Source: Litchfieldia sinesaloumensis (GTDB lineage Bacteria; Bacillota; Bacilli; Bacillales; Bacillaceae_L). From it: a stretch of 64,000 nucleotides of DNA. Under the pieces are notes generated by a model, which made no database searches, was not told where the DNA came from, and was given only the letters and a program-made list of their open reading frames with translations. The DNA lies in contig NZ_LT732529.1 in assembly GCF_900156865.1 (NCBI RefSeq), positions 885,056-949,055 of the forward strand. Reading direction: 5' to 3'. Shown here piece by piece: positions 7,224 to 55,217 of this stretch. The position numbers were made by a program, and so were the translations under genes. Position 1 is the stretch's first letter. Each line of letters begins with the position of its first letter.

Positions 7224-7254
7224 TTTAAAACAACTAATTACACTTGAATACAAA

Positions 7255-7495
7255 AAGTAGCTATGAAAGGGACAGTAGTTTTTGTCGTTCTTATGTTAGC
7301 GAGTCAGGGTTGGTGGAAGCCTGATATAAGTGATAAAAATGAAAATCACCCTGGAGTTCGATGCTGAACATATATAAATGGTTCAACTATACCCTGTATA
7401 TTGACATTTCTAAGTAAGCATATCGCGAATCATTCACGTTACGAATGTCGAGTGGACGAATATAGTATATTTGTCTATAAGGGTGGTACCGCGAG
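7255..7495 (+). promoter_or_regulatory. T-box riboswitch (isoleucine) of ileS
   Basis: The 421-base gap before ileS holds a T-box leader. GGGACAGTAG near 7269 begins stem I; AGCGAGTCAGGGTTGGTGG and GCCTGAT form the distal stem I. The probable specifier codon is ATC (Ile) at 7345-7347, within GAAAATCACCCTGG. The T-box proper is AAGGGTGGTACCGCG (7479-7493), whose TGGT pairs with the ACCA end of uncharged tRNA. Specifier assignment is by pattern, not by folding. Confidence 0.92.
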
Positions 7496-7533
7496 AGCCT
7501 TCTCGTCCCTTTTTGGGATGAGAGGGCTTTTTT
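7496..7533 (+). terminator. T-box terminator hairpin
   Basis: AGCCTTCTCGTCCC (7496-7509) pairs with GGGATGAGAGGGCT (7515-7528), followed by TTTTTT. It is exclusive with the antiterminator that includes the T-box bulge. Confidence 0.92.
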
Positions 7534-12629: not shown

Positions 12630-12670
12630 GAGTCCCTTTAAAATCAGTCCCGTGAGGCTGAGAAGGAAAC
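12630..12670 (+). promoter_or_regulatory. PyrR attenuator 1 (pyrR leader), PyrR-binding loop
   Basis: CAGTCCCGTGAGGCTG (12645-12660) fits the PyrR anti-antiterminator consensus (AGUCCnGnGAGGYU) and closes as a CAG/CTG-based hairpin. UMP- or UTP-bound PyrR stabilises it, freeing the downstream terminator. First of three copies in the operon. Confidence 0.92.
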
Positions 12671-12710
12671 GGAGTTGCATATGGATAAGTATCCATTTGT
12701 ATTATTGTGT

Positions 12711-12744
12711 CCTCTCGCCTACGGTGAGAGGACTTTCTTTTTTT
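12711..12744 (+). terminator. Attenuator terminator before pyrR
   Basis: CCTCTC (12711-12716) pairs with GAGAGG (12726-12731), then ACTTTCTTTTTTT. Competes with the antiterminator of the pyrR leader. Confidence 0.88.
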
Positions 12745-13322: not shown

Positions 13323-13334
13323 ATAGATACCCTT

Positions 13335-13365
13335 TAATTGTAGTCCAGAGAGGCTAACAAAGGGG
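13335..13365 (+). promoter_or_regulatory. PyrR attenuator 2 (pyrR-pyrP), PyrR-binding loop
   Basis: TAGTCCAGAGAGGCTA (13341-13356) matches the PyrR-binding consensus, closed by TAG/CTA. The flanking CCCTTT (13330-13335) and AAAGGGG (13360-13366) extend the stem. Confidence 0.93.
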
Positions 13366-13403
13366 TAAACATTCCTTCTCGAATGATAGGGATTTGTATA
13401 CCT

Positions 13404-13432
13404 CTTTGTGTAAAAAACACAAAGATTTTTTT
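13404..13432 (+). terminator. Attenuator terminator before pyrP
   Basis: CTTTGTGT (13404-13411) pairs with ACACAAAG (13417-13424) and is followed by ATTTTTTT. Confidence 0.9.
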
Positions 13433-13466
13433 ATTTATGGAGTTTTACAATGAGGAGGAATAATTA

Positions 13467-14780: not shown

Positions 14781-14818
14781 AACACCTTTTAAAGTAACCC
14801 AGAGAGGTTAGCAAGGGT
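14781..14818 (+). promoter_or_regulatory. PyrR attenuator 3 (pyrP-pyrB), PyrR-binding loop
   Basis: TAACCCAGAGAGGTTA (14795-14810) matches the PyrR-binding consensus with a compensatory CC/GG change. Outer pairing ACACCTTTT / AAGGGTGT extends it. AACACC and the distal ACACCC compete in the alternative structures. Confidence 0.92.
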
Positions 14819-14880
14819 GTAAGGATTTTGTGAAGAGGTATAGCATTAGTGTACCTTTTTTAATCAAAATCCTCGTTTTT

Positions 14881-14914
14881 ACACCCTTACCAGAGTAGGT
14901 AAGGGTGTTTTTTT
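14881..14914 (+). terminator. Attenuator terminator before pyrB
   Basis: Perfect 11-bp stem ACACCCTTACC / GGTAAGGGTGT with a 6-base loop and seven Ts. The strongest of the three pyr attenuator terminators. Confidence 0.95.
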
Positions 14915-14918
14915 ATAA

Positions 14919-26184: not shown

Positions 26185-26239
26185 ACGTGTATCCTCTTTT
26201 CTATATAAATAAAAAGCAAAGTTTGGACTTAGTATTAGT

Positions 26240-26355
26240 GACTAGCTCCAGACACCATCGACTCTCTGGTCTAAGCCGATCCCTTCGGAAGGTAAAAAGT
26301 ACCTTCTAATCAGGTCTTGTCTTATGCTAGTCGCCTAAAGCTGCGCTCCTTGCAC
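26240..26355 (+). repeat. Dispersed intergenic repeat, copy A
   Basis: Non-coding 116-bp element between the divergent rqcH and yloB genes. It begins ACTAGCTCCAG, has a central perfect hairpin GAAGGTA / TACCTTC (about 26288-26306), then CTTATGCTAGTCGCC, and ends CCTTGCAC. These blocks recur in the same order in copies B (35189-35360) and C (43988-44103). Similar elements occur between genes in many Bacillaceae, from memory. Confidence 0.75.
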
Positions 26356-26466
26356 TATTCGTATAAATTAGTAACTTAGAAAAAGTATAGCATTTTTTTG
26401 GACGAGACTGAATAAGCTTTCATAGAGATGCAGATATACGATTTGTGAGGGGTGTGTAAAAGACGG

Positions 26467-35188: not shown

Positions 35189-35360
35189 GAAAAGTGCAAG
35201 GAATCCAAAATCCGGCTGAGGGCATGAAGGTCCTGTGCCTAACACTGGAACACTAGCTAACCAGGCGTGGGCGACAAGTATAAGACGAGAGCTGACAGAA
35301 GTACATTTTACCTTCTGAAGCGATCGCTCATATCGATAGCTAATAGTGCTGGAGATAGAC
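35189..35360 (-). repeat. Dispersed intergenic repeat, copy B (inverted)
   Basis: Fills most of the 236-base priA-def gap. On the minus strand it begins GTCTATCTCCAG, has AGAAGGTAAAATGTACTTCT as central hairpin, then GTCTTATACTTGTCGCC, and ends CCTTGCACTTTTCT. Compared with copies A and C it carries about 55 extra bases between the GTCGCC block and the terminal CCTTGCAC. No coding potential was seen. Confidence 0.75.
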
Positions 35361-35392
35361 ATATAAAAAAGTAGAATGTTGGAGGAACAACC

Positions 35393-43941: not shown

Positions 43942-43979
43942 AAATTTTTAGCACTTACATATGTAAGTGCTAAAAATTT
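43942..43979. repeat. Perfect 38-bp palindrome between spoVM and rpmB
   Basis: Two 19-base arms, centred between 43960 and 43961, with no unpaired centre. The left arm ends GCACTTACAT and the right arm begins ATGTAAGTGC; A/T runs flank both sides. It could be a bidirectional terminator for the convergent spoVM and rpmB transcripts, a cruciform-forming site, or a protein-binding dyad. Confidence 0.85.
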
Positions 43980-43987
43980 TTCTTTAT

Positions 43988-44103
43988 GTCTGGCTCCAGT
44001 GGCCATCGACTTGAGTCATAAGCCAATTGGATCGGAAGGTAAGGGCACCTTCTGTCAGCGCTCGTTTTAAGCTTGACGCCAATAAACGCCCTTACACTTT
44101 TCT
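43988..44103 (+). repeat. Dispersed intergenic repeat, copy C
   Basis: 116 bp, beginning GTCTGGCTCCAG, with central GAAGGTAAGGGCACCTTC, then TTTTAAGCTTGACGCC, and ending CCCTTACACTTTTCT. It is the same family as copies A and B. It ends 3 bases from the rpmB stop codon and begins 8 bases past the 38-bp palindrome. A 94-codon plus-strand reading frame across it and rpmB is judged spurious. Confidence 0.75.
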
Positions 44104-53141: not shown

Positions 53142-53882
53142 ATGTTAAATGGCAAAGTGGCATTGGTTACTGGTGCATCTCGTGGAATCGGGCGCACGAT
53201 TGCACTTGAATTAGCAAAAGCTGGTGCAAAGGTTGCAGTGAATTATTCTGGTAGTGAACAAAAAGCAAACGAAGTTGTAGATGAAATTAAAGCATTAGGA
53301 CAAGAAGCGGTTGCTATTCAGGCAAATGTATCTGATTCTGAATCAGTGACAAACATGGTAAAGGAAGTTATTTCTACTTTTGGTAGCCTTGATATACTCG
53401 TAAATAATGCCGGAATCACCCGAGATAATTTATTGATGAGGATGAAAGAAGAAGAGTGGGACGATGTTATTAATATAAACCTAAAAGGAGTATTCCTTTG
53501 TACAAAGGCTGTAACAAGACAAATGATGAAGCAGCGCTCTGGGAAAATTATTAACATTGCTTCAATTGTGGGTGTTAGTGGAAATCCAGGACAAGCTAAC
53601 TATGTTGCCGCAAAAGCCGGTGTTATCGGCCTAACAAAAACTGCAGCGAAGGAGTTAGCAAGCCGCAATATCAACGTGAATGCTGTAGCTCCAGGGTTTA
53701 TTACTACTGATATGACTGATAAATTGCCTGACGATGTTAAAAATGAAATGCTTAAGTTAATTCCTCTTGCAAGATTTGGTGATACAACAGATATCTCAGG
53801 AGCTGTATTATTCTTAGCCTCGGATAACAGTACTTATATGACTGGTCAAACATTACATATTGATGGTGGAATGGTGATGTAA
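53142..53882 (+). CDS. fabG: 3-oxoacyl-ACP reductase
   Basis: NADPH-dependent reductase of the fatty-acid elongation cycle; short-chain dehydrogenase family. 246 residues, same as B. subtilis. Cofactor motif TGASRGIG (10-17); NNAG (88-91); catalytic Ser141, Tyr154 and Lys158 in the [20 protein letters not shown] block. C-terminal [19 protein letters not shown] is typical. ATG at 53142 with GGAGGGCAA upstream. acpP follows with its own promoter. Confidence 0.98.
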
Positions 53883-53949
53883 CTAGAAACTTATTGGTTT
53901 CTGTCATTAGTAACGAAATGAAAACTACAACCTTTTCTACTATAGGACC

Positions 53950-53979
53950 TTGCGCTTTCCTAGTAAAACCAAATATAAT
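53950..53979 (+). promoter_or_regulatory. Sigma-A promoter of acpP
   Basis: TTGCGC (53950-53955), 18-base spacer, perfect TATAAT (53974-53979). Confidence 0.7.
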
Positions 53980-54002
53980 ACTTTGAGGGGAGGTGAATGG
54001 AA

Positions 54003-54236
54003 ATGGCAGATGTTTTTGAGAGAATTACAAAAATCGTTGTTGACCGCTTAGGTGTTGAAGAATCAGCAGTAACTTTAGAAGCTTCTTTTAAAGATGACCT
54101 AGGAGCGGATTCATTAGACGTTGTTGAACTAGTTATGGAACTAGAAGATGAGTTTGATATGGAAATTTCAGATGATGAGGCTGAAAAGATTTCTACAGTT
54201 GGTGACGCTGTAAATTACATAAAAAGCCAGCTATAA
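54003..54236 (+). CDS. acpP: Acyl carrier protein
   Basis: Carries acyl chains on a phosphopantetheine arm. The ATG at 54003 is chosen over 53997 because the ribosome site AGGGGAGG (53987-53994) then has proper spacing and the product matches the 77-residue Bacillus protein. The attachment Ser37 lies in [16 protein letters not shown]. The protein is strongly acidic ([15 protein letters not shown]). It has its own promoter and terminator, giving a short abundant transcript. Confidence 0.98.
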
Positions 54237-54247
54237 TAATTCTTAAA

Positions 54248-54277
54248 GAAAAGTCCCGTTATTTAACGGGGCTTTCT
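54248..54277 (+). terminator. Terminator after acpP
   Basis: AAAGTCCCGTT pairs with AACGGGGCTTT (one G-T pair) across a short ATTT loop; the tail is only TTTCTC. Confidence 0.65.
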
Positions 54278-54294
54278 CAAGGTTTTAGCGCAGT

Positions 54295-54466
54295 CGTCTA
54301 GCTCTCATCAGGTCTAATAACCTTTGTCAAGAAAAGTCAAAGAGAAGAGCGACTTTTTTTGACAAAGAACATTAGCTTGTCGGGCTTTTACAGGACAAAG
54401 ATGTGCTGACGTCTACATTCGTCACAGGACGTAGACAATCCACTCTTATTGCGCCTGCGCTTTTCT
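54295..54466 (+). repeat. Dispersed intergenic repeat, copy D, in the rnc leader
   Basis: 172 bp filling most of the acpP-rnc gap. It begins CGTCTAGCTC, contains CTTGTCGGGCTTTTACAGG and ends GCGCCTGCGCTTTTCT. It is a different subfamily from copies A-C, sharing the GTCTAGCTC start and CTTTTCT end. Its end is 6 bases from the rnc ribosome site (GGAGGT, 54472-54477). Contains the 17-bp hairpin listed separately. Confidence 0.7.
54322..54367 (+). other. 17-bp hairpin in the leader of the RNase III gene
   Basis: CTTTGTCAAGAAAAGTC (54322-54338) pairs with GACTTTTTTTGACAAAG (54351-54367), 16 Watson-Crick pairs and one G-U, around a 12-base loop. Lies inside repeat copy D, about 120 bases before the rnc start. 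Confidence 0.8.
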
Positions 54467-54485
54467 AATTGGAGGTTAACGTAAG

Positions 54486-55217
54486 GTGAAGCGGATAAAT
54501 AAAGATAGAAGCAGTAGGGTCGTTTTAAAATTTAAGACGTTTCAGGAGCGACTTGGCATTGAGTTTCATGATGAGAGTCTTCTTATTCAAGCATTTACAC
54601 ATTCATCTTATGTGAATGAGCATCGAAAAAAGCCGCACGAAGACAATGAACGGCTCGAATTTTTAGGGGATGCTGTTTTAGAACTTACCATTTCCAAGTT
54701 TTTATTTAAAAAGTTTCCAATTATGAGTGAAGGTGAACTAACAAAGATGCGTGCAGCAATTGTGTGCGAACCATCTTTGGTAACATTTGCTAACGAACTA
54801 AAATTTGGAGAATTTGTTTTACTAGGAAAAGGTGAAGAAATGACCGGTGGTAGATCACGTCCAGCTTTACTTGCAGATGTATTTGAAGCTTTTATTGGGG
54901 CTTTGTATCTTGATAAAGGTTTAGAGGTTGTGAATCAGTTCTTAGATAAAACAGTTATTCCAAAAATTAATGCGGGTGCTTTTTCTCATGTGATGGATTA
55001 TAAAAGTCAACTGCAAGAACTAGTTCAGCGAGACGGAACTGGGATTATTGAGTATAAGGTCTTACAAGAAAAAGGACCAGCTCATAGTCGAGAATTCGTT
55101 TCAAGGGTTTCTCTAAATGGTGAGGAGCTAGGTACTGGTTCAGGAAGATCTAAAAAAGAAGCAGAGCAACATGCTGCAGAAATAGCTTTACAAAAGCTTA
55201 AGAATAAACAACAATAA
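54486..55217 (+). CDS. rnc: Ribonuclease III
   Basis: Double-strand-specific endoribonuclease that processes rRNA precursors and structured mRNAs. GTG start at 54486 with TTGGAGGTT upstream; 243 residues (249 in B. subtilis). The catalytic domain has the signature [16 protein letters not shown], with Glu and Asp metal ligands, and [16 protein letters not shown]. The C-terminal dsRNA-binding domain starts near residue 168 ([33 protein letters not shown]). Precedes smc and ftsY, as in B. subtilis. Confidence 0.98.

Follow-up and report, generated by a model that had tools for sequence, protein, structure and literature searches.

A dispersed, hairpin-bearing Bacillaceae repeat between acpP and the RNase III gene of Litchfieldia sinesaloumensis: probably a passenger at its insertion site

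The repeats most similar by description to the element analyzed here are the Correia or NEMIS sequences (CREE) of Neisseria, short and mobile-looking, with inverted ends. In the available part of the paper describing them, CREE hairpins, when transcribed, can bind RNase III and be either cut or protected, altering the mRNA of neighbour genes (PMC2649163). Structured repeats of comparable kind, again by description only, are known in Bacillus: Bcr1, Bant-1, Bhal-1 and Bhal-2, 72–167 bp long, are listed for B. anthracis and B. halodurans in the accessible sections of PMC2267715, and bcr1 is called B. cereus group-specific in the title of its own paper. A relation of our repeat to Bhal-1 or Bhal-2 is possible. 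RNase III also acts on its own mRNA. According to the excerpts at hand, the E. coli enzyme cuts the rnc 5'UTR (PMC8708148), and the S. aureus enzyme autoregulates by cutting its own coding region instead (PMC3386247). Mapped duplexes of B. subtilis RNase III measure 10–36 bp in the available text of PMC11780869.

The window, a stretch of 64,000 nucleotides from the 4.56 Mb genome of L. sinesaloumensis (G000), carries a repeat, copy D, in the 249 bases that separate acpP from rnc (Table 1). The nearest named relatives of the encoded RNase III are found in Fredinandcohnia onubensis and Bacillus timonensis (93–90% identity), and rnc was found in all nine genomes of the genus compared (G000 to G008). 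The candidate target differs from those of E. coli and S. aureus in being an inserted repeat, known from its sequence; it differs from CREE in that the stem is an inner one, the CREE stem being the terminal repeat, and in that cleavage is predicted.

An earlier note on this DNA had the repeat fill almost all of the spacer from position 54295 and end 6 bases from the rnc ribosome-binding site. Copy D does occupy most of the spacer, but it starts some 12 bases further upstream, at about 54283, and although it ends close to the ribosome-binding site, the distance is 4 bases. The left end (TTTTAGC, corresponding to TGTCTAGC) was set by alignment with the counterpart in G005; it is degenerate (TTTTAGCGC) and recognisable only through that counterpart. 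The string GTCTAGCTC at 54296, where the match to the repeat model starts too, is an internal look-alike of the element end. Family members are bounded by TGTCTAGCTCC...GCGCTTTTCT, and the right end lies in copy D at 54457-54466, the last seven bases, 54460-54466, reading CTTTTCT. The 5' and 3' motifs AGCGCAG and CTGCGCT could pair as a terminal stem of the family; this stem is absent from the lowest-energy fold of the leader.

Table 1. Features of the acpP-rnc region and related sequences (positions in the 64,000-nucleotide window, unless a locus is named)
Feature	Position	Strand	Basis or remark
Repeat copy A	26239..26361	+	match to repeat model R1; in the model's alignment
Repeat copy B	35246..35361	-	match to R1; outside the model's alignment
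Repeat copy C	43987..44103	+	match to R1; in the model's alignment
acpP (acyl carrier protein)	53997..54236	+	named from sequence, DSLD motif
Hairpin 3' of acpP, CCCGTTATTTAACGGG, terminator-like	54255..54270	+	just 4 T in the next 8 bases
Repeat copy D: Bacillaceae core element carrying a decayed module insert	54283..54466	+	alignment with G005 counterpart and empty sites; R1 match 54295-54391
AGCGCAG near element 5' end	54287..54293	+	by eye, sequence and family alignment
Flanking 5-bp helix, 5' arm CTAAT	54314..54318	+	fold; 3x3 internal loop between helix and stem
17-bp central stem, 5' arm CTTTGTCAAGAAAAGTC	54322..54338	+	sequence, folding, window stem scan
17-bp central stem, 3' arm GACTTTTTTTGACAAAG	54351..54367	+	sequence, folding, window stem scan
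Flanking 5-bp helix, 3' arm ATTAG	54371..54375	+	fold and subfamily alignment
Decayed module like Bacillaceae-1 (RF01690) in copy D	54393..54442, limits approximate	-	comparison with G005 counterpart
CTGCGCT, possible 3' partner of terminal stem	54455..54461	+	by eye, sequence and family alignment
rnc ribosome-binding site GGAGG	54471..54475	+	read in sequence; also in relatives
rnc (RNase III)	54486..55217	+	GTG start at 54486
R2 hairpin	L071:2713-2789, L109:2720-2816; 12 further named loci		between acpP and rnc; Cytobacillus-type genomes

The core repeat is about 122 bp long, TGTCTAGCTCCAGCGCC...GGCGCTTGCGCTTTTCT, and contains an inner hairpin, as read from the copies. Its model, R1 (123 positions), was made from 26 module-free copies, hand-picked for clear ends; they include A and C of the window as well as members from loci L070 and L079, but neither D nor B. 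That copy D is part of a dispersed repeat, as proposed, holds well: R1 finds four copies in the window and at least 75 matches genome-wide. Copy D, absent from the model alignment, scores 50.6 bits in the window (E 8e-10), carries family ends, and is inserted at a gap otherwise shared. At E 0.01 the matches in G000 to G008 are at least 75, 39, 35, 50, 40, 76, 87, 74 and 47, all lower bounds, 150 candidates being scored per genome. The element end GCGCCTGCGCTTTTCT occurs 23 times in the host genome with up to 2 mismatches, versus none for the reversed pattern, and TGTCTAGCTCCAGC 76 times versus 6. Copy D is divergent, genome BLAST giving just partial DNA matches, four besides itself. Gapped BLAST of copy D in the window revealed no other copy, and the ungapped repeat search of the window missed the family, motif and model searches being needed.

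RNAalifold predicts 25 consensus pairs in the 26 core copies, 20 of them with at least one double change. At 26 loci of the host genome, taken with a rough ORF finder, some holding partial elements and the rRNA copies left out, 19 repeats lie between tandem genes, 11 of them in sense and 8 in antisense orientation, while 5 separate convergent and 2 divergent genes. The family is of interest in itself, with dozens of copies per genome that covary and reside also at the 3' ends of 23S rRNA genes. A copy with the end TCGCCTACGCTTTTCT is found at the 23S rRNA 3' end at 12 places in the host genome (L017:1295-1519, L009-L012, L016 and L020-L025, as far as the flanks are shown); the copy in L017, the one such locus scanned with Rfam, lies between 23S and 5S rRNA. 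Immediately upstream of copy C is a palindrome (43942-43979) whose 17-bp arms match perfectly and enclose a loop of 4 bases. Where scanned, the core repeat matches no Rfam family except for the Bacillaceae-1 module, and no description of it was found in the portions of the literature available. The string that it shares with PMC2817692 is part of a Citrobacter REP sequence, judging from the accessible text. The host genome has two Y1_Tnp matches, one with a 264-aa ORF (L148:1093-1887, minus strand); by eye, no family ends, such as would link the family to REP or REPIN elements mobilised by a Y1 transposase, are seen in the 350 bp on each side of this ORF.

The 17-bp stem described in the earlier note is present at the coordinates of Table 1. 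It is made up of 17 pairs, one being G-U, and closes a loop of 12 nt. The 46-nt hairpin has a predicted energy of -19.7 kcal/mol (z -5.6), the 62-nt hairpin including the flanking CTAAT/ATTAG helix -22.4 kcal/mol (z -6.0), and the fold of the 221-nt rnc leader a z of -3.5. Stems of at least 17 bp (G-U allowed, loop 3–20) are four in the 64-kb window, versus one in total in 12 dinucleotide shuffles. Rfam matches to copy D below threshold, to miRNA and sRNA families, were taken as chance.

The stem is a trait of the subfamily to which copy D belongs, recognised by the pattern AGGTCWAATAACCT.....CAAGAAAAGTCAAAGAGCGACTTTTTT. Genome G004 holds 30 matches to copy D at E 0.01, none of them at rnc. 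The subfamily was aligned in 27 rows (20 distinct), comprising 22 copies from G004, one each from G002, G005, G007 and G008, and copy D; the G004 copies come from 20 short stretches and 3 fetched loci, L171 and, for G007, L160 being left out. When the stem is written from copy D, 96.7% of the cells are paired, compared with 89.6% in shuffles and 40.1–46.5% in slid registers. Five stem pairs exhibit changes on both sides (e.g., CTGATGC/GCATCAG, CTGTGGC/GCCACAG, CTGGGGC/GCCCCAG), and one pair of the flanking helix a two-sided change. The 17-bp stem is the central helix of the family, and compensatory changes preserve it in copies located elsewhere than at rnc. Covariation among dispersed copies shows the helix to be important for the repeat itself, whether as DNA or as RNA; it is silent on rnc.

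Several core copies host in their 3' half, on the opposite strand, a Bacillaceae-1 RNA module. Nine loci were scanned for RF01690; matches occur in seven and exceed the gathering score in six, and by position those in L002, L003, L004, L005 and L008 (a copy fetched also as L051) fall within core copies. The module is intact in the G005 counterpart of copy D (65.9 bits, above the 35 bits taken as threshold for the covariance model), but copy D no longer matches, RF01690 giving no hit up to E 5; nor does that model cover the 122-bp core and the 17-bp stem within it. Entries of the published table in which Bacillaceae-1 appears are qualified by three columns, which we take to be RNA, cis-regulatory and switch. 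The row of Bacillaceae-1 reads 'Y n n' in the available part of Weinberg et al. 2010 (PMC2864571). In all, the insert at rnc would consist of the core of about 122 bp with its central hairpin and of a Bacillaceae-1 module on the opposite strand.

The pattern of distribution within the genus suggests gain. The acpP-rnc gap measures 249 bp in G000, 250 bp in G005 and 60–70 bp in the other seven genomes (61 or 70 bp in G004, according to the start codon chosen), so that two genomes of nine carry a copy, at the same junction. The empty junction reads CTTTCTCCTTGGAGG in six genomes and CTTGGGAGG (CTTTCTCCTTGGGAGG) in G008, and only about 10 bases separate the acpP terminator stem from the rnc ribosome-binding site at empty sites. 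Four empty named loci, L059, L060, L061 and L062, are the same records as G002, G001, G007 and G004, already counted, and therefore add no evidence. On the question raised by the earlier note, whether the hairpin at rnc is gained or conserved, the leaders of relatives side with the former: copy D looks gained, and conservation at rnc does not stand, the structure being shared at this place by two of nine genus genomes, and a family copy by 4 of 80 named rnc loci.

The age of the insertion is less easily read. An old element, inherited vertically at this site from the common ancestor of G000 and G005 and precisely lost elsewhere, which is compatible with any functional reading, appears rather unlikely to us. 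Copy D and the G005 copy share the junction and are joined in a tree of 20 module-bearing copies chosen among those fetched (99/96; branch lengths 0.22 for D and 0 for the G005 copy), and the G005 copy is the best BLAST match of copy D. Site B is filled in G000, G005 and G008; G003, and perhaps G007, retains a short remnant, and the site is clean in G006 and in the near-identical relatives G001 and G002. Yet G005 is sister to G008, with 100% support in trees from about 3.4 kb and from 32 kb, and the G008 site is empty, which requires several scarless losses. Further, the highest raw BLAST scores of the G005 copy, up to 219 bits, are obtained with G004 copies, its score with D being 140 bits. 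Copy D and the G005 copy are 84% identical over 174 columns and their mostly coding neighbourhood 82.2%, a low divergence for non-coding DNA of such age unless constrained. The data would fit two separate insertions at the same junction, a transfer, or a single old insertion with several scarless losses afterwards. Sites A and C, the former filled only in G000 and occupied by an unrelated insert in G005, the latter filled in G000 and G007, indicate together with site B that turnover of this sort is nothing unusual, shared sites being subject to clean losses or repeated gains.

The rnc gene is not a favoured target. At E 0.1, R1 places copies between acpP and rnc at 4 of the 80 named rnc loci (L070, L079 twice, L127 and L128), L070 and one L079 copy being members of the model first found by eye, and 10 loci have minus-strand copies upstream of acpP; the 80 loci include the four records found also among the seven empty genus genomes. 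The notion of rnc as a repeat hot spot was rejected on this count of 4 versus 10, which ignores lineage. By a rough guess, about 75 copies and 3000 gaps per genome, a given gap would be struck in a few per cent of genomes, and 4 of 80 is therefore unremarkable. The two copies of L079 indicate that rnc leaders tolerate such repeats.

All this bears on the proposal of the earlier note that a repeat supplied rnc with an RNase III target. The proposal survives in that a dispersed repeat with a conserved hairpin sits where seven of nine genomes have a short gap; it loses ground in that nothing here is special to rnc, the stem being a subfamily trait, copies at rnc being fewer than those upstream of acpP (4 vs. 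10 of 80), and most sisters having none. We rank first, and consider likely, that copy D is mostly a neutral passenger, and probably an RNase III substrate by accident of its structure; feedback on rnc ranks second. A dispersed structured Bacillaceae repeat would have landed in the short spacer that follows the weak acpP hairpin terminator and precedes the rnc ribosome-binding site, bringing along a 17-bp stem which is the central helix of the family and would not have arisen for rnc. The empty gaps leave no room for a promoter of rnc in their roughly 10 bases, and the acpP hairpin has no strong T tail (it does not pass a plus-strand terminator scan), so rnc is presumably expressed at least in part by read-through from acpP. 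If so, the hairpin would reside within the rnc-bearing transcript, and its presence in rnc mRNA is probable. Since 17 bp is within the range of B. subtilis duplexes, the stem is a fair substrate, and its cleavage by RNase III, parting acpP from rnc, is plausible. The effect on the level of rnc would be small and unselected.

Two features fit a neutral passenger less well. Repeated insertion at the junction shared with G005, or else prolonged retention there, is less readily expected of it; and the stem of D is perfect while the rest of D has decayed, a hint of constraint. The stems of D and of the G005 copy feature 3 differences in 34 positions, with 17/17 and 16/17 positions paired, respectively, two of the differences forming a compensatory change of one pair and the third repairing a mismatch. 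With three random stem changes, an equally good outcome is reached in 0.4% of trials (P = 0.004); the figure is post hoc and supposes that D derives from a stem like that of G005, and the substitutions may have arisen within the mobile family prior to insertion.

Self-regulation of rnc through copy D is possible by analogy with the systems above. RNase III would cut the inserted stem in the acpP-rnc transcript and rnc mRNA would degrade faster, for example from the new 5' end, limiting synthesis of the enzyme. A suitable and perfect stem, of a length cut in B. subtilis, is positioned between acpP and the rnc ribosome-binding site, E. coli and S. aureus provide precedents for RNase III acting on rnc mRNA, and CREE for repeats that can bind it and be cut. 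We nevertheless hold autoregulation to be unlikely, given that seven of nine genus genomes have no copy, that the hairpin is generic to the repeat, and that copies are not enriched at rnc; moreover, the string 'autoregul' is absent from the available portion of a paper on B. subtilis RNase III (PMC3531473). Quite unlikely, too, is the stronger form, in which the repeat gave rnc, perhaps separately in G005, an RNase III hairpin and with it a new feedback loop, the hairpin alone being under selection. An effect on transcription, the insert altering read-through at the acpP terminator or bringing in a promoter with no cleavage of RNA, is improbable: copy D lies directly 3' of the terminator-like hairpin and relatives have only the short interval noted above, but no sigma-A-like site is found on the plus strand from 53850 to 54600 by a simple and weak scan, which finds no plus-strand promoter for acpP either, and a promoter sought within copy D itself was not found by this weak scan.

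Whichever way the passenger and substrate reading turns, the locus is informative. If the hairpin is cut, it would make a natural experiment in which a mobile hairpin rewires a housekeeping operon, the two filled and seven empty junctions of one genus allowing a direct comparison of RNase III level; if uncut, it illustrates cleanly how a structured intergenic repeat can appear regulatory through nothing more than its landing place.

Another hairpin, R2, was observed past the acpP stop codon but ahead of the acpP terminator in 14 of the 80 named loci, with 24 bp and approximate arms GTRTTTACTGTCCGTTRTTACCTG...CAGGTRRYTRYGGACAGTAAATAC. In the 24-pair structure drawn by eye 93.8% of the cells are paired, compared with 90.7% in shuffles and at most 48.8% in slid registers; double-change pairs are 6, versus 2.9 in shuffles (6 being reached by 9 of 500), and further pair types 20, no more than in shuffles (19.5). 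The R2 model has a single match in each of 10 genomes, out of 14 given. Among 40 genomes of one family it was detected in three, one of the ten again and two new, and the hairpins of these two differ from all 14. In all 12 loci inspected, R2 is flanked by acpP and rnc motifs. No Rfam family is found at gathering score over the hairpin in seven loci. R2 was not detected in 17 genomes of the window's family, where up to 150 candidates per genome were scored, with no known positive among them, and a search of 299 genomes of the order, carried out with stricter filters and about 13 candidates per genome among the matches listed, again with no known positive, was empty, an outcome that carries no weight. 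Single-copy, long, and beside rnc wherever found, R2 is a better conserved RNase III target candidate than copy D; it is possibly a native RNase III target or an acpP 3'UTR element. It precedes the acpP terminator, however, and promoter-like sequence may follow it.

In Neobacillus and kin, many acpP-rnc gaps contain a terminator-like hairpin ending CAAGTTTCTTTG (pattern in 23 of 80 loci) and a promoter-like TTGCG..TAAACT (28 of 80), both counts being without control; neither is seen in the short Fredinandcohnia gaps. Elsewhere in the window, a T-box leader and three PyrR binding sites reach gathering score (7254-7513, 12631-12742, 13327-13435 and 14782-14915), which we take to be ordinary for the ileS and pyr region of Bacillus.
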